From the NCBI GenBank assembly GCA_944350445.1, contig CALVOW010000008.1, forward strand, positions 1 to 53,283: a DNA stretch of 53,283 nucleotides, given 5' to 3'. Shown piece by piece: positions 9,791 through 21,617 of this stretch (its first letter is position 1; every line of letters begins with the position of its first letter). Under the pieces are notes generated by a model that saw only the letters and a list, made by a program, of their open reading frames with translations, had not been told where the DNA came from and made no database searches. This stretch comes from an uncultured Bacilli bacterium (GTDB taxonomy: Bacteria; Bacillota_I; Bacilli_A; RF39; UBA660). The translations under genes were made by a program, and so were the position numbers.

Positions 9791-10237
9791 TTAATTAATA
9801 TTATAACCTAACTTTTCTAATTCGAGAATAACAATCAGAGATAATTCATTTTTATTTAATTTAGATATATGATACCAATTAGCTCCAAGTGAATCATCAT
9901 TTATGTTATTAATATTCACTTCTTTTTTTATTTTGTTTTTATAATCTAAGACTTTATAAAAAATTCCTATATGATGAACTTTTAATAAAATATTTTCTTT
10001 ATATGCCCATTTAAATGTAACAGAGTTAGCATCAAACAATTCATAATTAAGAATTTCTATTCCTGTTTCCTCTTCTAACTCTCTTTTTAAAGTTTGTGCT
10101 GGCTTTTCACCAAATTCAATTGTTCCACCAGGCAAATCTAGTTTGCCATCATAAGGTCCCCCGAATTTTCTAATCAGTAAAATTTTATCATCTTTTACTA
10201 TTAAACCATAGGCACCTAATTGTTTAAATTCTTTCAT
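9791..10237 (-). CDS. Nudix hydrolase
   Basis: 148 residues containing a full Nudix box ending GEKPAQTLKRELEEETGI (about 43-60), with the REL-EE metal-binding helix. The enzyme hydrolyses a nucleoside diphosphate linked to another group; the substrate cannot be read from sequence. AAAGGT precedes the ATG. The 200 nt upstream are AT-rich and hold no other gene. It follows asnS in the same direction, but about 200 nt with a poor AT-only hairpin lie between, so it is probably expressed separately. Confidence 0.88.
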   Translation of the reverse strand: MKEFKQLGAYGLIVKDDKILLIRKFGGPYDGKLDLPGGTIEFGEKPAQTLKRELEEETGIEILNYELFDANSVTFKWAYKENILLKVHHIGIFYKVLDYKNKIKKEVNINNINDDSLGANWYHISKLNKNELSLIVILELEKLGYNIN

Positions 10238-10436: not shown

Positions 10437-11819
10437 TTAATAAAGACAATTACCTGGTGTTCTTGGAAATGCACTAACATCTCTAATATTGCTCATTCCA
10501 GTCATATACATTATTAATCTTTCAAAGCCCATTCCAAATCCTGAATGAACAGTTGTTCCATATTTACGTAAATTTAAATACCAAATATATTCATCTTTAT
10601 TCATTCCAAGTTCTTTTATTCTATTTTCTAATTTAGTAAAATCATCTTCTCTTTGACTCATTCCATAAGTTTCACCAATACCTGGCATTTCTAAATCAGC
10701 ATTAGCTACTGTACCATCATCCATTTGTTTCATATAAAAACACTTTTTAACTTTTTGAGGCCAATATGTAATAAATACAGGTTTATCAAAATATTCAGTT
10801 ATATATCTTTCATGTTCTTTTGCTAAATCTTCTCCATATTCAGGTTTAAATTGAAAATCTACTTTGGCCTTTTTCAAAATATTTATACATTCTTTATATG
10901 TTGCTCTAACAAAATCACTATTTATTACAGTAGTTAATTTATTTATAAGACCACTTTCTACAAATTTATCTAAAAATTTAAATTCATCAGGGCATTTATC
11001 TAACGTATATTTTATAACATATTTCATTAAATCTTCTGAAATATCCATAATTCCCTCTAAATCACAAAAAGCAACCTCTGGTTCTATTTGCCAAAATTCT
11101 GCAATATGTAATGGTGTATGCGAAGGATCGGCTCTAAACGTCGGTCCAAATGTATAAATTTTGCTAAAAGCTTGTGCAAACGCTTCACCTTCAAATTGGC
11201 CTGATACAGTTAAGCCAACTGGTTTTCCAAAATACTCATTATCATTATTTGTTTTTCCTGTTTTAGCAATATCTTCAAGGTTCTGTGTTGTAACTTGAAA
11301 CATTTCACCAGCACCTTCACAATCACTAGATGTAAAAATTGGAGTATGTGCATATATATATCCTCTATCTTGAAAAAATTGATGTATTGCCATTGAAGCT
11401 ACACTTCGAATTCGAAAAACGGCTTGAAATGTATTAGTTCTTAAACGTAAATATGATTGTTCTCTTAAAAACTCCATTGAGTGTCTTTTAGGTTGAATTG
11501 GATAATCTTCTGAGCAATCACCATGTAAAAGTATATTACTTACTTTTAATTCATAATCTTGTCCTTGCCCAGATGATTTTACAAACTCTCCTTCAACTTC
11601 AATTGAACTATAAATATGAAATTTTTGTATTTCTTCATAATTTTTTAAATTACTATCATATACTAATTGTAATTGCTTAAAAGCCGTACCATCTGAAAAA
11701 TAAATAAAACCGAAATCTTTTTGCTTCCTATGATTTCTAATCCAACCCTTCAATTTAATTTTTTTTCCAATAAATTCTTTTTCATTCTTATACAAATCAT
11801 TTAAATAAATATAATCCAT
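10437..11819 (-). CDS. asnS: asparaginyl-tRNA synthetase, T-box controlled copy
   Basis: 460 residues: an N-terminal OB-fold anticodon-binding domain (about 1-105) and a class II core. The core has GPTFRADPSHTPLHIAEFW (motif 2, about 225-245) and GFGMGFERLIMY (motif 3, near the C-terminus). It charges tRNA-Asn. The start has AAAGGAGAG upstream and follows an Asn T-box leader, the hallmark of a housekeeping synthetase gene. Against the usual AsnRS pattern (FRAENSNT-RH, VPHSGFG, IPFPRT), several active-site-proximal positions differ: FRADPSHTPLH, TVHSGFG and SAFPRT. It is roughly half identical by eye to the second copy at 12146-13540. Which copy does most of the charging is not decided by sequence. 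Confidence 0.93.
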   Translation of the reverse strand: MDYIYLNDLYKNEKEFIGKKIKLKGWIRNHRKQKDFGFIYFSDGTAFKQLQLVYDSNLKNYEEIQKFHIYSSIEVEGEFVKSSGQGQDYELKVSNILLHGDCSEDYPIQPKRHSMEFLREQSYLRLRTNTFQAVFRIRSVASMAIHQFFQDRGYIYAHTPIFTSSDCEGAGEMFQVTTQNLEDIAKTGKTNNDNEYFGKPVGLTVSGQFEGEAFAQAFSKIYTFGPTFRADPSHTPLHIAEFWQIEPEVAFCDLEGIMDISEDLMKYVIKYTLDKCPDEFKFLDKFVESGLINKLTTVINSDFVRATYKECINILKKAKVDFQFKPEYGEDLAKEHERYITEYFDKPVFITYWPQKVKKCFYMKQMDDGTVANADLEMPGIGETYGMSQREDDFTKLENRIKELGMNKDEYIWYLNLRKYGTTVHSGFGMGFERLIMYMTGMSNIRDVSAFPRTPGNCLY

Positions 11820-11842: not shown

Positions 11843-12099
11843 ATAATAAAAACAGTATTCAATCCCACAAAGGGACGAAATACTGTTAATTCCGCGGTAC
11901 CACCCAAATTATCTAATAATAGATCACTTAATTAGATTTAACGCATCTATACGAATATATTTACTATAAATTCAATATATTACTCCGAAGTGTTATTCAA
12001 ATTTATCTTGCTATCGAATTTTCACCTTCATCGATTCTCTATAAGCAGTATTAAATCTTACTTCTCTTCATCATCGCTCTTACAGTTAATATTATACCA
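11843..12099 (-). promoter_or_regulatory. Asn-specific T-box riboswitch with its promoter
   Basis: The minus strand carries an extended -10 (TGGTATAAT, 12091-12099), a stem I region with the GGTGAAAA distal segment (about 12019-12026), the T-box core GGGTGGTACCGCGGA (11891-11905), and a terminator made from AACAGTATT and AATACTGTT arms (11851-11859 with 11879-11887) followed by a T run. The strand closing stem I reads GAATAACACTTC; it offers AAC (11992-11994) as specifier codon, matching the asnS gene downstream. Uncharged tRNA-Asn would stabilise the antiterminator. The stretch 11820-12145 holds this element only. Confidence 0.92.
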
Positions 12100-12145: not shown

Positions 12146-13540
12146 TTATAATTTTAATTTTTTACATTTTGTTCGAGGAAACGGAATAGTATCTCTGATA
12201 TTATCGATTCCAGTAGCATACATAATTAACCTTTCAAATCCTATACCAAATCCACTATGTGGAACAGAACCATATTTTCTTAAATCTAAATACCACAAAT
12301 AATCTTCTTTATTCATATTTAATTCCTCTATTCTCTTGTTTAATAATTCAAAATTATCTTCTCTTTGACTTGCTCCAATTATCTCTCCAATACCTGGAAC
12401 AAGAAGATCAGTAGAGGCAACTGTTCTACCGTCTGGATTAGCTTTCATATAAAACGATTTCAATTCTTTTGGAAAATTAGTTATAAATACTGGTTTTTTA
12501 TAAATTACTTCTGTTATATATCTTTCATGTTCACTTTTTAAATCACAGCCCCAATAAACAGGAAACTCAAAATCTACATTTGCATTTTCTAAAATTCTTA
12601 TTGCATCTGTGTATTCTAATTTAGCAAAATCACTTTCGACAACATTTATTAATCTCTCGCTTAAACTTTTATCATAATATTTTGTAAAAAATTTTACTTC
12701 ATCCGAACACTCTACTAACATTCTCTTCAATACATATTTTATTAAATCGGTTGCTATATCAATAATATCATCTAAATCAGCAAACGCAACCTCCGGTTCT
12801 ATTTGCCAAAATTCAGCAGCATGCCGTTTCGTATTAGAATTTTCAGCTCTAAACGTTGGACCAAAAGTATATACTTTTCCTAAACTACAAGCCAATGCTT
12901 CAGCTTCTAATTGTCCTGAAACAGTTAGACCAACTTTTTTACCAAAAAAATCATCTGAATCAATATTAGGATTATACTTATCTTTTGAAATTTTATCAAT
13001 GTTTAATGTCGTAACTCGAAACATCTCACCAGCACCTTCACAATCACTTCCAGTAATTATTGGCGTATTTACATAGGTATAGTTATTTTTTTGAAAATAA
13101 TCATGAATTGATTTTGATAAAACACTTCGTACCCTAAAAATAGCATTGAAAGTATTAGTTCTTGTTCTCAAATGTGGCATTTCTCTTAAATAATCCATAC
13201 TTTGATTCTTTTTTTGTATAGGATAATCTAAAGAACAATTGCCCAATAATTTTATATCATTTACATTTAATTCTACATTTTGATTTGAATTTAAAGATTT
13301 TACAACTTTCCCTTTAACTGCAAGTGATGAACCAATCGTTAACCCTAAACAAAAAGAAAATAATTGTTCATTAGAGTTATCTACAACTAATTGTAAATTT
13401 TTTAACGATGTACCATCATTTAATTCAATGAAGCACATTCTTTTAGATTTTCTAATTGTTTTAATCCATCCACATACTACTACATTTTTTCCAACATATT
13501 CTTCGTTATTAATAACAATTTTTACGTCATCATGTTTCAT
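12146..13540 (-). CDS. second asparaginyl-tRNA synthetase, adjacent to the RiPP-like cluster
   Basis: 464 residues from the ATG at 13540, chosen because GGGAGG (13551-13556) lies just upstream; a longer reading frame to 13594 would run back into the promoter. It is full length, with an OB-fold anticodon domain and a class II core with motif 2 FRAENSNTKRHAAEFW and motif 3 GFGIGFERLIMY, both close to the canonical AsnRS pattern. It is therefore an active-looking synthetase, not an AsnA-like paralog. It has no T-box; a perfect sigma-A promoter drives it. It follows the TldE gene by 175 nt in the same direction. Inference: a target duplicate giving self-resistance to the cluster product. Alternatives: a stress copy, or the ancestral housekeeping copy. 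Confidence 0.93.
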   Translation of the reverse strand: MKHDDVKIVINNEEYVGKNVVVCGWIKTIRKSKRMCFIELNDGTSLKNLQLVVDNSNEQLFSFCLGLTIGSSLAVKGKVVKSLNSNQNVELNVNDIKLLGNCSLDYPIQKKNQSMDYLREMPHLRTRTNTFNAIFRVRSVLSKSIHDYFQKNNYTYVNTPIITGSDCEGAGEMFRVTTLNIDKISKDKYNPNIDSDDFFGKKVGLTVSGQLEAEALACSLGKVYTFGPTFRAENSNTKRHAAEFWQIEPEVAFADLDDIIDIATDLIKYVLKRMLVECSDEVKFFTKYYDKSLSERLINVVESDFAKLEYTDAIRILENANVDFEFPVYWGCDLKSEHERYITEVIYKKPVFITNFPKELKSFYMKANPDGRTVASTDLLVPGIGEIIGASQREDNFELLNKRIEELNMNKEDYLWYLDLRKYGSVPHSGFGIGFERLIMYATGIDNIRDTIPFPRTKCKKLKL

Positions 13541-13576
13541 AAATTTTCTTCCTCCCATAATTTTTTTATGATGCAT

Positions 13577-13605
13577 ATTATAATGTAAATACATACATTT
13601 GTCAA
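13577..13605 (-). promoter_or_regulatory. consensus sigma-A promoter of the second AsnRS gene
   Basis: Minus strand TTGACA (13600-13605), exactly 17 nt, TATAAT (13577-13582): a perfect consensus. It lies 37 nt upstream of the chosen start, so expression does not depend on the cluster transcript and should be strong and constitutive. Confidence 0.9.
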
Positions 13606-13714: not shown

Positions 13715-14728
13715 TTACATATTATCAATATTGCTTATATAGACATCAGGACAACAAAAGTCATTAGAAAACTCTTTTTTTAGTGAAACAAGTTTAATGT
13801 TATTTATCAAATCAAGAACTTTAAATTCATACAGTTTATTAGAAAATACATTTACTACTACTCCTTTTTTAATATAGTAGCCTGTACATAAAACTTTAAC
13901 TTTTTCATTATTTTCTTTTAAGTTATTTAAAAAATACAATCTAGTTATTACATATCCTGTATTCAATTCTTTATTTAAATTTTTTGTTTTATATGTACTA
14001 TCAAAATAGAAAGATTTGTTCATTGAAATATCACTATATTTTTTTACTTTAAAAAAATTTTTAGTTTTTAATAAATTTCCTTTTTGATTATAAAAATTAT
14101 TATTATATGAAAAATATCCAATAGGAACTGAAATAATTGATATAGATTTTTTTATGTTTGCTCGCTCTTTCCACACATTTTTTTTGTACATTGTAAGAAT
14201 TTGAGCAAAGGCATTAGAAGTTATTATTAATTTATGTTCACGAATACTATTTATATTATAATCAATATTTTTTTTTAAGATGTTTTCTATCAATTCAAGT
14301 TTTTTTATTAATTTAACAAATTGAAATTTTTTAAATTTATAATTAATTTCTTGTCCTATTTTCTTGTTCAAATCATAACAACATATCATAAACTCATAAT
14401 AATTGTTACTATGAGCAATAATTTTATCTACATTTTTAGATTTAAAATAATAATAATTCAATTCAATATCATAAGAATATTTTGACTTTTTAATATATTT
14501 CATTAATTTCTTTAAATATTTAATCATAATTTTTTTTCTAAAATTCATAAATATATTTTTTAAAATAAAAAAATCATCATCAACATCATTAGTTTTTTTA
14601 TAATTTTTCTTCATACAAATAATATAGTTTCGTTCTACGATGTTAAATGATTTAATATTTTTATTATAAGCTTTTATTTTATAATTATAATAATAGTTTT
14701 TAATTACAACAGATTTAAATTTTTCCAT
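13715..14728 (-). CDS. TldE/PmbA-like protease partner (divergent)
   Basis: 337 residues from the ATG at 14728, which has GGAAGG 8 nt upstream and starts 4 nt after the TldD stop. No HExxH motif is present, as expected for the TldE subunit. The C-terminal third resembles PmbA/TldE: TGYYIKKGVVVNVFSNKLYEF, followed by the closing segment CCPDVYISNID, echoes the family's end. It is shorter than typical PmbA (about 440 aa) and extremely rich in Lys, Asn, Tyr and Phe, so the call rests mainly on placement beside TldD and these weak matches. TldD/TldE heterodimers cut unfolded peptides and remove leader peptides in microcin B17 maturation. Here it probably forms that dimer with the neighbouring TldD. 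Confidence 0.65.
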   Translation of the reverse strand: MEKFKSVVIKNYYYNYKIKAYNKNIKSFNIVERNYIICMKKNYKKTNDVDDDFFILKNIFMNFRKKIMIKYLKKLMKYIKKSKYSYDIELNYYYFKSKNVDKIIAHSNNYYEFMICCYDLNKKIGQEINYKFKKFQFVKLIKKLELIENILKKNIDYNINSIREHKLIITSNAFAQILTMYKKNVWKERANIKKSISIISVPIGYFSYNNNFYNQKGNLLKTKNFFKVKKYSDISMNKSFYFDSTYKTKNLNKELNTGYVITRLYFLNNLKENNEKVKVLCTGYYIKKGVVVNVFSNKLYEFKVLDLINNIKLVSLKKEFSNDFCCPDVYISNIDNM

Positions 14729-14732
14729 TATA

Positions 14733-16100
14733 TCAACCTTCCACAAATAACTCATCTATTTTAATAGTTGGTTGGCCAACTGTTGTATATATAAAACCAC
14801 TCTCACTTCCGCAAATTCCACAACAAAATTTTAAATCATTACCAATCATAGAAATTTTTTTCAACATATCCATTGTATTTCCTATTATCGACAAATTATC
14901 TAGTGCTCTTGTATAATCAATTTTACCATCGATAATTAAATATGATTCTAAACAATTAAAACTAAAATTTCCAGAAATAGTATCTACAACTCCTCCAACA
15001 ACATTTTTTACATATATTCCATATTTAACTGATGTAATAATTTCTTCAAAATCATATTTACCTGGTAAAATATAAGTATTACTCATTCTTGAAGACATCA
15101 AATTATAATATGATTCTCTTCTTCCGTTAAAATGACCATTTTTATTAAGAAAACTACTACCATCATTATCAATTAAATAATTTTTTATTTTTCCATCTTT
15201 AATTAATTCTATTCTATGAGTTTTATTTCCTTCATCATCAAATATTGATGAACCAAACAAATTTAATATAGTTGGATCATCTACAATTGTTAATGCTGAA
15301 TTTTCAACATCTGTACATAAATTTAATATGCTTTTATTTTTTAAAATTTCACGTGATTCTAGTGAATGTCCACAGGCCTCGTGAATTAACACTCCTCCAA
15401 TTCCACTTGATAATACGACTGGAATTTTTTTTCTATAATTGTCTATAGTATTCATTTTTAACAATGAATTATATAAAATATTTAATTGATGTTCTAACTT
15501 AATATTTTTTAGTTTGTTTTTTTGTGAACAAATTCCTTCTGAATAATAATTAAATCTAATTTTTCCATTCAATATAGCACTCATTAATATATCCATTTTA
15601 TAATAATATTCTATTTTAAAAACATATTTGCCAGTAGAATTTGCAATACATGTTTCTTTTTTTTCGTAAAGTAATGGAATATTTAAATTAACAATTTTTT
15701 TATGCTTCTCACAAAATTTTTTTATAATCTCTAAATAAATATTATCATAAAAGTAATCAAATCGTGATTCTTTTTTGTCAACATTTTCAATATTTAATTT
15801 AAATTTCACTATTTTAGTTTTATATTTTTTTTTACTATTTTTTAGAAAAATATTTTTTTTAATTTTTTTGCATATTAATTTTATATTATTTGTATTATTA
15901 ATTGAAATAGTATATTTTTGATTATTATAATTAAATAAAATTGTCGTTCCTGTTTCATAAAAAATATTTGTTATATTATTTTTTAAATTCAAATCAATTA
16001 TTCTCTTTTCTTTTTTTATACTATTAATTTCAACATAATTTACACCAAATAAAAGTATGTATTTTATTATAAATTCTAAATCTTCTTTTTTATACAGCAT
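14733..16100 (-). CDS. TldD-like zinc metalloprotease
   Basis: 455 residues. The zinc site is intact: HEACGHSLE (H240, E241, H245) and the C-terminal GICG cysteine (about C430), followed by the family ending VGQPTIKIDELFVEG. In the TldD/TldE heterodimer this subunit carries the metal and trims or degrades peptides; the E. coli pair matures microcin B17 and degrades CcdA. The N-terminal 130 residues are more divergent and Lys/Asn-rich than usual. The ATG at 16100 lies 2 nt after the PqqD-like stop and has AAAGGA upstream. In this cluster the natural role is leader removal or final trimming of the modified peptide (inference). Confidence 0.9.
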   Translation of the reverse strand: MLYKKEDLEFIIKYILLFGVNYVEINSIKKEKRIIDLNLKNNITNIFYETGTTILFNYNNQKYTISINNTNNIKLICKKIKKNIFLKNSKKKYKTKIVKFKLNIENVDKKESRFDYFYDNIYLEIIKKFCEKHKKIVNLNIPLLYEKKETCIANSTGKYVFKIEYYYKMDILMSAILNGKIRFNYYSEGICSQKNKLKNIKLEHQLNILYNSLLKMNTIDNYRKKIPVVLSSGIGGVLIHEACGHSLESREILKNKSILNLCTDVENSALTIVDDPTILNLFGSSIFDDEGNKTHRIELIKDGKIKNYLIDNDGSSFLNKNGHFNGRRESYYNLMSSRMSNTYILPGKYDFEEIITSVKYGIYVKNVVGGVVDTISGNFSFNCLESYLIIDGKIDYTRALDNLSIIGNTMDMLKKISMIGNDLKFCCGICGSESGFIYTTVGQPTIKIDELFVEG

Positions 16101-16102
16101 AA

Positions 16103-16360
16103 TTATTTTTCCTTTATAATTATTATTTTATTATCTATCATTTTTTGAATAATATGTTCTAATTCTTCTAATGAATAATTTTTCTTTAATAAAGCAAACA
16201 ATTCTTTTTTTTCAATACCATCTTTGTATTGAATAATTGTTTTTACAATTTCAAAACCTTTATCATTAAATTTAAAAATTTTCATATCTCTAGCTGAAAA
16301 AATTATTTTATCACTATCTCTAATTATAATTTTTTTATTTATTTGTAAAAATTTTTTCAT
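16103..16360 (-). CDS. PqqD-like RiPP recognition protein
   Basis: 85 residues from the ATG at 16360, chosen for its GGGAGGTGA site 9 nt upstream; the frame could extend to 16405 but that start has no such site. The pattern fits PqqD/RRE: two or three N-terminal beta strands (KKFLQINKKIIIRDSDKIIF), a segment ending in FNDKGFEIVKTI, and a helical C-terminal part (LEELEHIIQKMIDNKIIIIKEK). Stand-alone PqqD proteins bind the leader of a precursor peptide and present it to a radical SAM enzyme. It overlaps the upstream HExxH gene by 26 nt. The fold call is by pattern only, but its place beside two radical SAM genes strengthens it. Confidence 0.75.
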   Translation of the reverse strand: MKKFLQINKKIIIRDSDKIIFSARDMKIFKFNDKGFEIVKTIIQYKDGIEKKELFALLKKNYSLEELEHIIQKMIDNKIIIIKEK

Positions 16361-16766
16361 AAATATAATCACCTCCCAAAATATTATTTGTTTTAAAATA
16401 TTCATATAATTTTTTTTCAGAAAATATTGTTAAAGTTAGAAGTTTAAGTTTTTGATGAAAACTAAATTGAAATGATAATTTAAAAAAAGCATATAAATTT
16501 GATAACATTTCATTAAAATAATTATATTTTTGTGGACAAGTATTTATCGTATTAAATTTAATATGTCCAAATTCATGAAATAATGTTAATGGCAATATTT
16601 TTTTTTCTATTTTTTCTGATACAAAAATAAAGTATTTTTTTCCTATTTTTACGACACAAGCATTTGCTTGTAAACTAGAAACAACTTGAATTTCACAATC
16701 ATATTTAGTAGATAATTTATTAATTTTATTAATTATTTTTTTTTTCCAAAATATATATTTGCTCAT
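16335..16766 (-). CDS. ImmA/IrrE-like HExxH metallopeptidase
   Basis: 143 residues with HEFGH (H64, E65, H68) and a downstream NEMLSNLYAFF that matches the family's third-ligand helix (E..-AN.FA). This is the minimal IrrE/ImmA peptidase fold (COG2856-like). Known members cleave repressors (ImmA of ICEBs1, IrrE/DdrO); others accompany toxin or antibiotic loci. It has no helix-turn-helix of its own. It overlaps the methyltransferase gene by 38 nt, so it is clearly part of the transcript. It could process the precursor as a second peptidase or control the cluster; no repressor gene is visible here. Confidence 0.72.
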   Translation of the reverse strand: MSKYIFWKKKIINKINKLSTKYDCEIQVVSSLQANACVVKIGKKYFIFVSEKIEKKILPLTLFHEFGHIKFNTINTCPQKYNYFNEMLSNLYAFFKLSFQFSFHQKLKLLTLTIFSEKKLYEYFKTNNILGGDYIYEKIFTNK

Positions 16767-17502
16767 TAGTTTTACCTTTAAATTCTCTTAAATCATACCA
16801 ATCATATTTGTTTTTTATTTTAAATTTAGATTTTGAAATAATGTAATCTAATTCTTGCGGAAAATATAATCTAACTTTTATATTTAAAGTCATTTTTTGT
16901 CCTTTACTATCTATGTAATAATAATTGACATTATTTATTTGTGTTGCATGGTCATACTTACTATTTTCACAAATTTTAACTTTTTCTCCTGTTTTGGACA
17001 ATATAAACTCATCTTCGTCATAATACTCATCCATATTTCGCATTAAATATTTAAATCTTGGCTTCAATGCATCAAAAATCAATACACCATTATTATTTAA
17101 TAAATTAAATGCAGAATCAAGCATCTTTTCAAAGTCTTCTGTTTTTTCAAGATGATTAACCGAATTTGAAGTTATTAATATAACATCAAATTTTTCATTT
17201 ATATCTATATTTCTCATATCCTGACAATAAATTTCTAAATTTTCTAAATTATATTTCTTTTGTTTGGCTTTTTCTTTCAAGATTTTTAACATTGATTCAG
17301 AATAATCTAAAGCAAACACCTTTTTTCCTGATTCAATAATTGGAAATGTTATTCTCCCAGTTCCACAAGCTATTTCTAAAATTTTATTTGCATTTTGACA
17401 AGAGTTTACCCAAAAAGGAATATCTTCAATATTACGACCATAATAATCATCATAAAAATCAGCCATTCTATAGTTTTCAAAAAAATAGTCTTTATTATCC
17501 AT
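16729..17502 (-). CDS. class I SAM-dependent methyltransferase
   Basis: 257 residues from the ATG at 17502, which has GAGAGGTGA upstream; that site overlaps the stop region of the preceding radical SAM gene. Motif I is ILEIACGTGRITFPI (about 42-56), followed by the acidic end of strand 2 (FALDYSESML) and motif DVILITSNSVNHL. These are features of small-molecule or protein methyltransferases of the Methyltransf_25/11 type. In this operon it probably methylates the peptide or an intermediate; the methyl acceptor cannot be read. The N-terminal FYDDYYGRNIEDIPFW is typical of this branch. Confidence 0.87.
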   Translation of the reverse strand: MDNKDYFFENYRMADFYDDYYGRNIEDIPFWVNSCQNANKILEIACGTGRITFPIIESGKKVFALDYSESMLKILKEKAKQKKYNLENLEIYCQDMRNIDINEKFDVILITSNSVNHLEKTEDFEKMLDSAFNLLNNNGVLIFDALKPRFKYLMRNMDEYYDEDEFILSKTGEKVKICENSKYDHATQINNVNYYYIDSKGQKMTLNIKVRLYFPQELDYIISKSKFKIKNKYDWYDLREFKGKTNEQIYILEKKNN

Positions 17503-17518
17503 TTTTAAATTCACCTCT

Positions 17519-18307
17519 CTATATAATATCATCAATATTACTTGTATATATATTTCCCAAAGAAACACTTAATTCATTATGTTTAACATCTCCATTTGGC
17601 ATTATTATTACTGAAGATTTATGAATTCTAGTTAAATTTGTTTCATTTTTAGCACATTGAATCCAATCAATTTTGTTATTTTTATTCATATAATCAATAC
17701 AAAATTCATTAATCTTAAAAATTTCGTTTTTATTTAGTTCTTTTAATGTAGAATCATTTACTTTTTTCCAAAACTCTACTTTTACTTTAAAAGCATTCAT
17801 TGATTTTGAGAAATTTAACATATTATTTAAATCTTTATAATTTTTTTTATCTAAACAAAATGAAAGATTAACATTTATGTTTTTTTCTTGCAAAGTATGA
17901 ATTGTTTTTTTAATTTCATCAAAAGTTCCTGCACCTCTATAATTATCATTTAATTTACTATTACTACCATTTAAACCAATTTGAACACAACGTACCCCTG
18001 AATCATATATTTGCTGAGCTATTTCACTATTTATTCCTATTCCAGAAATTCCAAGTAATGGTAACATATCCAATTTTGTTGTATATTTTAAAATCTTAAA
18101 TATATCTGGATTAATCATTGGATCTCCACCAGTATATGCTATCATACATACATTATTTTTTTTTAAAGTTTTAAGAATTTCTTTTAATTTGTTAAAGGTA
18201 ATCATATTTTGATTCAAAGATTTTTGTTGAGTTAGAAAGCAATGTTTACATTTTAAAGGACAATAGTCAGTTAAATACACTACGACACAAACTGGAAATT
18301 TAGTCAT
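17519..18307 (-). CDS. radical SAM protein without auxiliary-cluster cysteines
   Basis: 262 residues. The radical SAM triad is present as CPLKCKHC (C16, C20, C23), with the SAM-binding AYTGGDPMINPDIF at about 60-73. The C-terminus (VIIMPNGDVKHNELSVSLGNIYTSNIDDII) has the strand and loop arrangement of SPASM proteins, but the clustered cysteines are absent and the chain stops early. It therefore probably holds a single 4Fe-4S cluster. It overlaps the first radical SAM gene by 8 nt (ATGACTAA), with AAGGAGG inside that gene. Two different radical SAM enzymes imply two modifications, or one acting as a partner of the other. Confidence 0.9.
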   Translation of the reverse strand: MTKFPVCVVVYLTDYCPLKCKHCFLTQQKSLNQNMITFNKLKEILKTLKKNNVCMIAYTGGDPMINPDIFKILKYTTKLDMLPLLGISGIGINSEIAQQIYDSGVRCVQIGLNGSNSKLNDNYRGAGTFDEIKKTIHTLQEKNINVNLSFCLDKKNYKDLNNMLNFSKSMNAFKVKVEFWKKVNDSTLKELNKNEIFKINEFCIDYMNKNNKIDWIQCAKNETNLTRIHKSSVIIMPNGDVKHNELSVSLGNIYTSNIDDII

Positions 18308-19193
18308 CTTTTACCTCCTTAAATGCTAAACATTTAAATTTTTCTTTGCATGTAAAGCATTTTAATTCATTTCTCCATTTTAAAAATGCTTCATCTTCAT
18401 TCCAAAATTTCTGAAATAAATCTATATTATTAATCCTTTTTGATTTATATTTGTGTGTGAGCAAATCACAAGGAGAAATAGTTAAATCGCTATTTAAAAT
18501 ACAATTATATATACCGGCACCACAACCATATCTAATATCAAACTTAGGCAACTGAATTAATATTCTATTCTTATTGTTTGTTTCTAATTTATTATACAAT
18601 TTAATCATTTCAGTATTAGTAATAGGCTCAAAATACTCATTTTTATTAATAGGTATATAGTATTCTATCCTTAATTTATTTATACCTAATTTATTAACTA
18701 AATTTAAAGAGTTTTCTAATATATCATTATAATTAAATGAATTAACTGTCATCGCTAAAGTAATATGACAATTATATTTTTTTAATATTTTAATATTGGT
18801 AACAACTCTATCAAAAACCCCATTTCCTCTAACATAGTCATTTATAGGAGCTGAAGCACCATCTAAACTAATTTGAAAATCCTTAACTCCATGCTTTAAT
18901 AATTTATGAATAATTTCTTCTGTAAGCAATGTTCCATTAGTTGCAATTCCTATTTTTAGTCGTTTATTATTTTTTTTTAGTATATAAAATAAATGTTTAC
19001 TTTTCAGTGGTTCACCACCAGTTAAAATAATACCATTTACTTGTTTTGTAATAAATAAATCAATGAATTTATTAATTTTTTTTTTATTTAACATATCATA
19101 TTCATATTCACTACGAAAACAATGTTTACATCTTAAATTACAATTTGATGTAATATTCCATGTTATAAACAATGGAAAAGTTAAGTACTCCAT
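18300..19193 (-). CDS. radical SAM peptide maturase with SPASM-type C-terminus
   Basis: 297 residues. The cluster triad is CNLRCKHC (C18, C22, C25), the SAM loop LTGGEPLKSK (about 57-66), and the C-terminal SPASM-like cysteines CGAGIYNC, PCD, then CFTCKEKFKC (last 60 residues). SPASM proteins install thioether, C-C or other crosslinks on ribosomal peptides, or process PqqA and MftA. The gene starts 96 nt after the 25-residue peptide gene and has AAGGAGG before its ATG. It is the first enzyme gene of the operon and the best candidate for the primary modification. Confidence 0.93.
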   Translation of the reverse strand: MEYLTFPLFITWNITSNCNLRCKHCFRSEYEYDMLNKKKINKFIDLFITKQVNGIILTGGEPLKSKHLFYILKKNNKRLKIGIATNGTLLTEEIIHKLLKHGVKDFQISLDGASAPINDYVRGNGVFDRVVTNIKILKKYNCHITLAMTVNSFNYNDILENSLNLVNKLGINKLRIEYYIPINKNEYFEPITNTEMIKLYNKLETNNKNRILIQLPKFDIRYGCGAGIYNCILNSDLTISPCDLLTHKYKSKRINNIDLFQKFWNEDEAFLKWRNELKCFTCKEKFKCLAFKEVKDD

Positions 19194-19219: not shown

Positions 19220-19260
19220 GTATAACTAATACTCTATAAATAATGGAGTATTAGTTATAC
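19220..19260 (-). other. perfect 15-bp hairpin between precursor and first radical SAM gene
   Basis: GTATAACTAATACTC (19220-19234) and its exact reverse complement (19246-19260) flank an 11-nt loop. No T run follows, so it is not a standard terminator. In RiPP operons a structure at this place often limits read-through or protects the 3' end of the abundant precursor mRNA; that role is inferred here. Confidence 0.8.
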
Positions 19261-19288: not shown

Positions 19289-19366
19289 TTAGTCTTCATC
19301 TTCTATGCCAATTGCACTCCATGAATTCATACAACCACTAACATCAATGATTTCGAAATCTGCCAC
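19289..19366 (-). CDS. putative RiPP precursor peptide, 25 aa
   Basis: A GTG-start frame of 25 codons. It begins MADFEIIDVS, continues GCMNSWSAIG (residues 11-20) and ends with the acidic IEDED. The ribosome site is AAAGGAGGTGAT (19371-19382), a full-length match to the anti-SD sequence. It is the first gene ahead of the radical SAM gene, separated by a perfect hairpin. The hydrophobic/acidic N-terminal half resembles a short leader of the PqqA or MftA size class; Cys12, Met13, Asn14, Ser15 and Trp16 are likely modification targets. There is no signal peptide or double-Gly site. I know of no described family with this sequence. That it is translated is well supported; the precursor role is inferred from context. 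Confidence 0.8.
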   Translation of the reverse strand: MADFEIIDVSGCMNSWSAIGIEDED

Positions 19367-20099: not shown

Positions 20100-21467
20100 T
20101 TAATGTCTGAGCATCATATTTTTTCTCCAAGGATGATTTTTAGGGGGAATATATTTATGATGTTCTTTTTCAATTTCGGAGTCAGTAACAGCTGATTCTT
20201 TTTTCATAGTTTCATTACGATTTTCAAGTTCTATCATCTGATAATAATGTCCTTCAACTTCACCCCAATATTCGCCATCATAATTAATTATAAATGTACA
20301 TTTTGTTCCTTTTGTAAAACAGATTAATTCTCCAGTTTTTGGGTTAATTGGAACATAATATTTGCAGTTATAACTTATTGATGATGCATTATCTATTATT
20401 TTATATTTTCTTTCAGCGATAATTAGTTTCAATTCTTCTTCTGTATATGTATTTTGTTTCATTACCGATTTCTTTTTGTCTATTACATAAGAAAATCTCT
20501 TATTCATTTTTGGAATAAAAACATTATTTAAATAATCATTGGCTTTATCTATATCAGTGATACCTCTATATCTTAACTCAGCGATTAATCTATTTTTAAA
20601 TGTACCATTTTCTCTTTCCACATTCGCTTTTGCTGTAGAAACACTGGTTGTTTCTAAAAATATATTTAATGTTTCACATACTTTTCCAAACTGTGTCATA
20701 AATGCTTTTTGGTTTTTATTTTTAGCTTTATTTGCCGAAAATGCACTTCGGTTGTCTGCTTTAATTTTTGCAGGGATTCCATAATTAATAATTATATGAA
20801 ATAATACAACATAGTAACCTCTTGTTATTTCTTCATATTCAAACCACCCAAACAATACTTTCTTCGTTGCCTTATCAACTGCCAAATGAAGATATGATAC
20901 GATATTGCCAAACCAATATTTTTCACAGGCATCCATTTGTACTTCTTGACCAAAAACATATAAATTACTTGATCTTCTAGTATGTGCCTTTTCAGTTTCT
21001 ATAATTCTAGATTCAAAAAGTTTCACTTTGTCTTTAGCATTACTTTCAATATTATTTTCTTTTGATACTAATTTCATTTTATTTTTATATTCTTGTATTG
21101 TTTTTTTATGAGCAAGTGGAGAAATAATATCATCCTTAGTAAATGCTTTTAACATGGTATCATATGATATATCATATTTACCAAAAATATAATCTTCATA
21201 AAAGTGTTCAAAATTAAAATCATAATGTTTTGTTAGGTATAAGTCTTCAAGTTCTTTTATTAATCTTTCATCTTTTTTATTTGGATTTTCTTTACCACGA
21301 TTTCCATGTATAAAACCATCTTCACCTTGTTCTTTAAAAGTTTTCTTTAATCTATATATTTGTCTTTCTGTTAGATTTAATAATTGTATTGTTTCTTTTA
21401 TTGTAATTTTTTTTGATACTAAGTCTGAAATAATATTATATTTATTCTTTTCGTATTCTTTTAACAT
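20100..21467 (-). CDS. IS1202-type DDE transposase
   Basis: 455 residues from the ATG at 21467, which has GGGAGG (21475-21480) upstream. An N-terminal helix-turn-helix (KITIKETIQLLNLTERQIYRLK) is followed by an rve-type DDE domain. The acidic residues are visible in VQMDACEKYWFG, KADNRSAF and VERENGTFKNRL. The motif QMDA-E--WFG is typical of the IS1202/ISNCY group. The frame is intact with no premature stop, so the element may still be active. Confidence 0.92.
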   Translation of the reverse strand: MLKEYEKNKYNIISDLVSKKITIKETIQLLNLTERQIYRLKKTFKEQGEDGFIHGNRGKENPNKKDERLIKELEDLYLTKHYDFNFEHFYEDYIFGKYDISYDTMLKAFTKDDIISPLAHKKTIQEYKNKMKLVSKENNIESNAKDKVKLFESRIIETEKAHTRRSSNLYVFGQEVQMDACEKYWFGNIVSYLHLAVDKATKKVLFGWFEYEEITRGYYVVLFHIIINYGIPAKIKADNRSAFSANKAKNKNQKAFMTQFGKVCETLNIFLETTSVSTAKANVERENGTFKNRLIAELRYRGITDIDKANDYLNNVFIPKMNKRFSYVIDKKKSVMKQNTYTEEELKLIIAERKYKIIDNASSISYNCKYYVPINPKTGELICFTKGTKCTFIINYDGEYWGEVEGHYYQMIELENRNETMKKESAVTDSEIEKEHHKYIPPKNHPWRKNMMLRH

Positions 21468-21617
21468 TAAAATACCTCCCTTGAATACAAGGAAGTATTT
21501 TAACAAATTACTGACATTTTCACTAATTATTAGCATTTTTTTTAGTTGTTAAATTTACTGACATTTTTATTAATCATTCGTTTTTTCAAAACATGACATT
21601 TTCATTAATTTTTCACA

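Follow-up and report, generated by a model that had tools for sequence, protein, structure and literature searches.

A radical SAM peptide cluster with two asparaginyl-tRNA synthetases in an uncultured Bacilli bacterium: a candidate synthetase-directed product with proposed self-resistance

Results

A 25-residue peptide gene heads a cluster of maturation genes

The window analysed here, a stretch of 53,283 nucleotides from an uncultured gut Bacilli bacterium (contig CALVOW010000008.1 of assembly GCA_944350445.1), carries on its minus strand a putative gene cluster for a ribosomally synthesized and post-translationally modified peptide (RiPP), in the order precursor peptide, two radical S-adenosylmethionine (SAM) enzymes (rSAM1 and rSAM2), methyltransferase, a small protein with a HEFGH motif, a RiPP recognition element (RRE), TldD, TldE and two asparaginyl-tRNA synthetases (AsnRS1 and AsnRS2; Table 1). 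The same order is found in genome G005, a rabbit-gut metagenome-assembled genome (isolate name Lapin-027; 79% complete, rearranged) of the same genus, where these ten genes lie in a different neighbourhood.

The precursor frame starts with GTG at 19366, shortly 3′ of AAAGGAGGTG, and encodes (M)ADFEIIDVSGCMNSWSAIGIEDED; its homologue in G005 (MADFEVIDVSGCMNSWSALGIDEEE, ATG start, in CANRCN010000016.1) lies immediately 5′ of the matching maturase genes. Between the two genes 14 of 72 nucleotides (24 codons) differ, with 2, 0 and 12 differences at codon positions 1, 2 and 3, and they cause five amino-acid changes, all conservative, compared with 9.0 expected if the same substitutions were placed randomly (P = 0.0045; 0 of 20,000 shuffles were equally conservative). 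Residues 7–18 are identical and both tails are acidic (EDED in the window, DEEE in G005). The third-position bias, the identical central segment and the very presence of a homologue indicate, as judged from codon selection, that the frame is a real, selected gene product, and this codon pattern rules out a chance frame. An earlier reading made from the letters of the window alone (the sequence-only reading) had described a 25-residue precursor with Cys12, Asn14, Trp16 and an EDED tail around a conserved centre, all of which we recover, the three residues being kept in G005 in what is a single comparison of two homologues. It had proposed that residues 11–20, if the most conserved, would be the core; the identical stretch in the two sequences aligned, both upstream of a radical SAM gene, is residues 7–18. 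A DNA motif for G-C-M-N-S-W occurred once, in the window, among 291 genomes of the family scanned.

Table 1. Features of the candidate cluster and of AsnRS1-type cassettes in related genomes
Feature	Position	Strand	Evidence
Putative RiPP precursor peptide, 25 aa, GTG start, MADFEIIDVSGCMNSWSAIGIEDED	19289..19366	-	Frame and Shine-Dalgarno sequence; homologue L034:1453-1530, 76% identical
Stem-loop between precursor and rSAM1	19220..19260	.	z -3.2 and -7.3; also in G005
rSAM1, radical SAM maturase, SPASM-like C-terminal cysteines	18300..19193	-	PF04055 3e-24; CNLRCKHC
rSAM2, second radical SAM protein, C-terminally truncated	17519..18307	-	PF04055 4e-19; CPLKCKHC
SAM-dependent methyltransferase	16729..17502	-	Nearest NCBIfam is daptide methyltransferase, 104 bits (cut-off 175)
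Small protein with zinc-peptidase-like HEFGH motif	16335..16766	-	Motif kept in both genomes
Putative stand-alone RRE, PqqD-like winged helix	16103..16360	-	AlphaFold2 pLDDT (predicted local distance difference test) 84
TldD, zinc site HEACGH intact (at 240)	14733..16100	-	PF19289 7e-56; HExxxH motif
TldE-like partner, without zinc motif	13715..14728	-	PF19289 2e-6
AsnRS1, second AsnRS, proposed self-resistance enzyme	12146..13540	-	637 bits to PRK03932
AsnRS2 T-box leader	11868..12083	-	RF00230 134.7 bits
AsnRS2, foreign AsnRS in slot of lost native asnS	10437..11819	-	Synteny, tree, motif 2 FRADPSHTPLH
AsnRS1-type cassettes	L137:1822-6055, L127:7578-11928, L126:12947-18617		Three genera of family

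Window and G005 proteins are 65% identical for rSAM1, 59–60% for rSAM2, 75–77% for the methyltransferase, 54% for the HEFGH protein, 52% for the RRE, 51–52% for TldD and 43% for TldE. Both radical SAM proteins carry the CxxxCxxC cluster motif. In rSAM1 Cys224, 231, 242, 279, 282 and 288 are kept in both homologues, the last part of the canonical seven-cysteine SPASM pattern is missing, and pVip also matches weakly across the core; rSAM2 has no SPASM-like C-terminal cysteines. The protein at 16103–16360 gave no RRE or PqqD match by sequence, and its assignment as an RRE is based on its predicted fold, for which the best PDB matches are the RREs of TigE (N-domain), TbiB1, NisB, TbtB and MccB (Z 9–11), with RREs filling the top of the list. 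No family match was found for the HEFGH protein, whose structure model is poor and without a confident fold; it is perhaps a second peptidase. TldD with the zinc motif and TldE without it reproduce the arrangement of the known heterodimer, which shortens RiPP leaders until it is halted at a modified residue (PMC10885120). The radical SAM maturases and TldD/TldE pair invoked in the sequence-only reading share a cluster with the precursor. None of the maturases reached an NCBIfam equivalog cut-off. Judged by its gene content, the locus is a radical SAM RiPP cluster, complete apart from an exporter and matched to no named class, and its genes very probably make a chemically modified peptide.

The cluster is rare. 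A search of 98 relatives for rSAM1 yielded one close homologue, that of G005, and no further clusters came from 395 genomes of the class searched with a profile of the methyltransferase, from viral contigs, plasmids and phages, or from wider contig scans, the last made with few short patterns, so that absence elsewhere is weakly tested. Separately, a second radical SAM/SPASM-type gene 3′ of a related methyltransferase gene, beside a transposase, was seen in the genome of the window itself at L145:510-2565 (G000:C18) and may belong to a further RiPP cluster.

Two additional synthetases accompany the cluster and the native one is gone

The duplication of AsnRS claimed from the sequence alone corresponds to two frames in the window (12146–13594, with AsnRS1 at 12146–13540, and 10437–11819), 80% (AsnRS1) and 90% (AsnRS2) identical to their G005 counterparts. 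AsnRS1, the last gene of the cluster, is full-length, with its anticodon-binding domain, scores above the curated cut-off and has no T-box leader; AsnRS2 has one, as does native asnS. Among all 17 genomes of the genus, AsnRS1 is present in both that bear the cluster and in none of the 15 that lack it. Fourteen of these 15 have one native AsnRS (82–94% identical among themselves), none of which is seen in the window genome or in G005, and to which AsnRS1 and AsnRS2 are ~52% and ~60% identical respectively. In the fifteenth (G014), where no AsnRS was seen, the contig ends near truA and the gene is probably missing through an assembly gap.

In relatives, native asnS lies after truA and before a PrsW-type gene, with LemA and DUF2207 genes between in G007, like the window. 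In the window, the slot from truA/LemA/DUF2207 to the PrsW-type gene holds an insertion sequence (IS)-type transposase, the cluster, AsnRS1, AsnRS2 and a NUDIX gene. Since the contig covers this slot together with the genes on either side, an assembly gap is ruled out as the reason for the missing native asnS in the window; in G005, with its incomplete and rearranged assembly, the absence may be either real or a gap. AsnRS2 is 90% identical between window and G005, yet rlmB is only 76% identical between them and the window copy is closer to that of G011 (84%), indicating that the two-AsnRS state does not come from shared ancestry. Two neighbouring genes were also recorded. The IS-type transposase (20100–21536, minus strand; helix-turn-helix and weak rve match) lies between LemA and the cluster, possibly at an insertion edge of the island. 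The NUDIX hydrolase gene (9791–10237, minus strand), between AsnRS2 and the PrsW-type gene, is missing from this position in the relatives examined and may be part of the island.

In a maximum-likelihood tree of 66 AsnRS, AsnRS2 groups with copies from genomes G203 and G113 (100/100), both of which also keep a native AsnRS, and not with the genus natives, ruling out that it is a vertically inherited asnS, while AsnRS1 falls apart from the AsnRS of the family, in a clade of its own on a long branch (100/100). AsnRS2-type genes stand alone in another genus, at L124:2027-3409 (G203:C68, with a T-box) and at L146 (G870:C109), G870 being a second species of the genus of G203; G203 has neither rSAM1 nor the cluster. 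The extra AsnRS of G113 (L129:7492-8856, G113:C28), on a contig that also has LemA/DUF2207, is sister to the AsnRS2 clade. This tree placement, the stand-alone copies and the slot in the window together indicate that AsnRS2 is, by sequence and synteny, a mobile extra AsnRS that took the place of the housekeeping gene.

AsnRS1-type enzymes recur beside other radical SAM genes

AsnRS1-type enzymes were picked up by a profile search in four of 386 family genomes, counting that of the window; the two weakest matches, which context and tree identify as ordinary AsnRS, are left out of this count. Outside the genus they occur in three genera (Table 1), in one cassette composed of a HAD phosphatase, a 217-residue protein, a radical SAM protein, AsnRS1 (in tandem in G207) and an S51 peptidase. 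The radical SAM protein of the cassette is termed 'viperin-like' after its nearest family, with a score well below cut-off, and the 217-residue protein, which looked by eye like a HIT hydrolase, has no database match and is not assigned to that family. All AsnRS1-type genes found adjoin a radical SAM gene, and those in the three genera, where there is no RiPP precursor of this kind, also an S51 peptidase gene. The isoaspartyl-nucleotide of microcin C is destroyed by S51 peptidases named MccG, which cleave it; some of these peptidases belong to producer clusters (PMC9239234). Recurrence of AsnRS1-type genes beside radical SAM genes and S51 genes, a class directed against anti-synthetase toxins, supports AsnRS as a target, and the cassette may stand for another AsnRS-directed product or for the immunity genes against it.

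Active sites of the two enzymes differ. In class II synthetases, Arg and Glu of motif 2 contact the phosphate and adenine of ATP. Motif 2 reads FRADPSHTPLH in AsnRS2 instead of FRAENSNTKTH, all 56 ordinary AsnRS having FRAE, and the AsnRS2 clade follows the pattern FRAD-[PK]-S-H-T-P-[LY]-H (FRADKSHTPYH in the G113 copy). This Glu is replaced by Asp in six of 10 secondary AsnRS, among them both AsnRS1-clade copies of G207 (FRAD), versus none of 56 ordinary ones (Fisher 2e-6, an overstated significance). Such a change could be what resistance to an adenylate-like inhibitor looks like.

Discussion

Proposed function and alternatives

On balance, we favour the view that the locus is a mobile biosynthetic island for a radical SAM RiPP that acts on AsnRS, and that the foreign synthetases confer self-resistance. 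As in known synthetase-copy self-resistance, a divergent second synthetase lies in the locus and cluster-free relatives have none. The link to AsnRS drawn in the sequence-only reading has gained from comparative genomics, given that AsnRS1 is specific to the cluster, AsnRS2 replaced native asnS and AsnRS1 relatives neighbour radical SAM and S51 genes. In the scheme that we propose, the RRE would bind the N-terminal half of the precursor (MADFEIIDVSG) and present the C-terminal half (CMNSWSAIG) to rSAM1 and rSAM2, whose action would leave at least one cross-link or oxidation within the invariant stretch SGCMNSWSA, and the methyltransferase would decorate the peptide. Working like a 'pencil sharpener', TldD/TldE would then degrade the leader until the first modified residue is reached, and the acidic tail would be cut off by the HEFGH protein or by a peptidase of the cell. 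In ordinary AsnRS the resulting short, modified product would act as a competitor of Asn or of asparaginyl-adenylate. The producer would survive because the operon-encoded AsnRS1 and the housekeeping replacement AsnRS2, with its altered motif 2, would be insensitive to it. The pairing of Cys12 with Trp16 and the release of an Asn-containing fragment, both put forward in the sequence-only reading, are plausible guesses.

Several observations speak against this view. There is no exporter between 9.8 and 19.4 kb, and neither a nucleotidyl transferase nor a dedicated detoxifying enzyme among the cluster genes. AsnRS1 of the window has a standard motif 2 (FRAENSNTKRH), bearing no active-site mark of resistance, so that its insensitivity would need another basis, and the six motif-2 Asp cases go back to some two to three lineages and do not count as six separate events. 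Since AsnRS2 is carried elsewhere without the cluster, its link to the cluster may be partly coincidental, and only two clusters are known.

AsnRS could, moreover, be a biosynthetic enzyme instead of a resistance copy. In this main alternative, which we consider unlikely, the product is a modified-peptide cofactor or small metabolite used in the cell and AsnRS1 activates or transfers (modified) Asn. The want of an exporter, the occurrence of AsnRS1-type genes next to radical SAM enzymes of two distinct types, the standard AsnRS1 active site and the resemblance of a precursor, RRE, radical SAM enzyme and peptidase to cofactor RiPPs such as pyrroloquinoline quinone (PQQ) and mycofactocin would all be in keeping with it, but AsnRS1 retains its full length, its anticodon-binding domain and a score above the curated cut-off, no PEARL-type ligase or ThiF is found among the cluster genes and no cofactor-using dehydrogenase is seen in the operon. 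It also leaves unexplained the displacement of native asnS by a second foreign AsnRS.

Less probable again, in our judgement, is a RiPP antibiotic or signal with a target other than AsnRS, the synthetase genes being passengers of an insertion at the asnS locus together with the donor's asnS. That the island of the window sits at this locus, and that AsnRS2, controlled by a T-box, resembles a normal housekeeping gene in its behaviour, would follow naturally; the different neighbourhood of the ten genes in G005, the position of AsnRS1 as a separate deep clade within the operon, and the recurrence of its relatives with radical SAM genes away from asnS would not. That the short frame is a leader peptide regulating the operon by attenuation, and not a substrate, seems to us very improbable. 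It does precede a long hairpin kept in both genomes, but this has no U-run on the coding strand and is terminator-like only when read on the plus strand; the frame has only one codon for Asn and lacks a series of regulatory codons, its amino-acid sequence is under selection, and the operon encodes an RRE-type peptide-binding protein and TldD/E.

Going beyond the AsnRS-directed, self-resistant RiPP that we favour, one may speculate that the peptide is modified by radical SAM chemistry alone, with no nucleotide, that its trimmed, Asn- and Trp-containing product mimics asparaginyl-adenylate and inhibits AsnRS, and that the AsnRS1 and AsnRS2 lineages are horizontally moving resistance genes in gut Bacilli that also protect against a second, cassette-linked product. 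Such a product would, to our knowledge, be the first AsnRS-directed natural RiPP. As a whole this more specific proposal is tentative and rather doubtful.

Radical SAM RiPPs, TldD/E processing and self-resistance through synthetase copies are each known singly. In the open-access literature searched we found no description of their combination, of the core SGCMNSWSA or of AsnRS as a protected target, nor of a natural product whose producer protects itself by a second AsnRS. The data suggest an undescribed, antibiotic-like molecule aimed at AsnRS. If this holds, it would represent a new antibacterial target-inhibitor pair with the resistance enzymes already in hand and a new radical SAM core motif, with AsnRS1-type genes as a marker for finding similar products.

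Comparison with known systems

The cluster shares a short precursor, an RRE and a SPASM-like maturase with radical SAM/SPASM RiPPs that have an RRE (PQQ, mycofactocin, streptide, WGK and ranthipeptides), but adds a pair of radical SAM enzymes, a methyltransferase, TldD/E and AsnRS, and its NCBIfam matches are far below cut-off. It is not a mycofactocin cluster by the MftC score of rSAM1 (97 bits versus a cut-off of 265) or by its tail, EDED and not Val-Tyr; it has no LanB/PEARL domain as pearlins do, and its methyltransferase falls short of the daptide family (104 versus 175 bits). Biphenomycin-type RiPPs likewise have a TldD-family protease (BipI) in a cluster with a radical SAM enzyme, but rely on an MNIO and a B12 radical SAM enzyme acting on Phe/Arg residues, none of which is in the window cluster (PMC12707348). 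A parallel with nitrilobacillin, whose RiPP cluster has an asparagine-synthetase-like enzyme, was set aside, that enzyme being an AS-B homologue and not an AsnRS.

With microcin C (MccA-MccF) and related compounds the common ground is a trimmed ribosomal peptide that blocks one aminoacyl-tRNA synthetase (here a proposal). TldD/E processing is also known from Yersinia McC, and S51 peptidases, which act there as resistance, are found here in the related AsnRS1 cassettes and not in the window cluster. The likeness that the sequence-only reading saw to microcin C is nonetheless loose: microcin C targets aspartyl-tRNA synthetase, versus AsnRS as proposed here, and has MccB/ThiF, a seven-residue precursor ending in Asn and an exporter, whereas the window cluster lacks both an MccB/ThiF-type nucleotidyl transferase and an exporter in the operon, has a precursor that does not end in Asn, and uses radical SAM chemistry, with foreign synthetases as the proposed resistance.

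Antibiotic clusters with a resistant synthetase copy include those for mupirocin (IleRS2), albomycin (SerRS2) and indolmycin (TrpRS). Like them, the window has a second, divergent synthetase in a biosynthetic locus; it differs from them in that the enzyme is an AsnRS, and in that there are two foreign copies, one having taken over the very position of the housekeeping gene.
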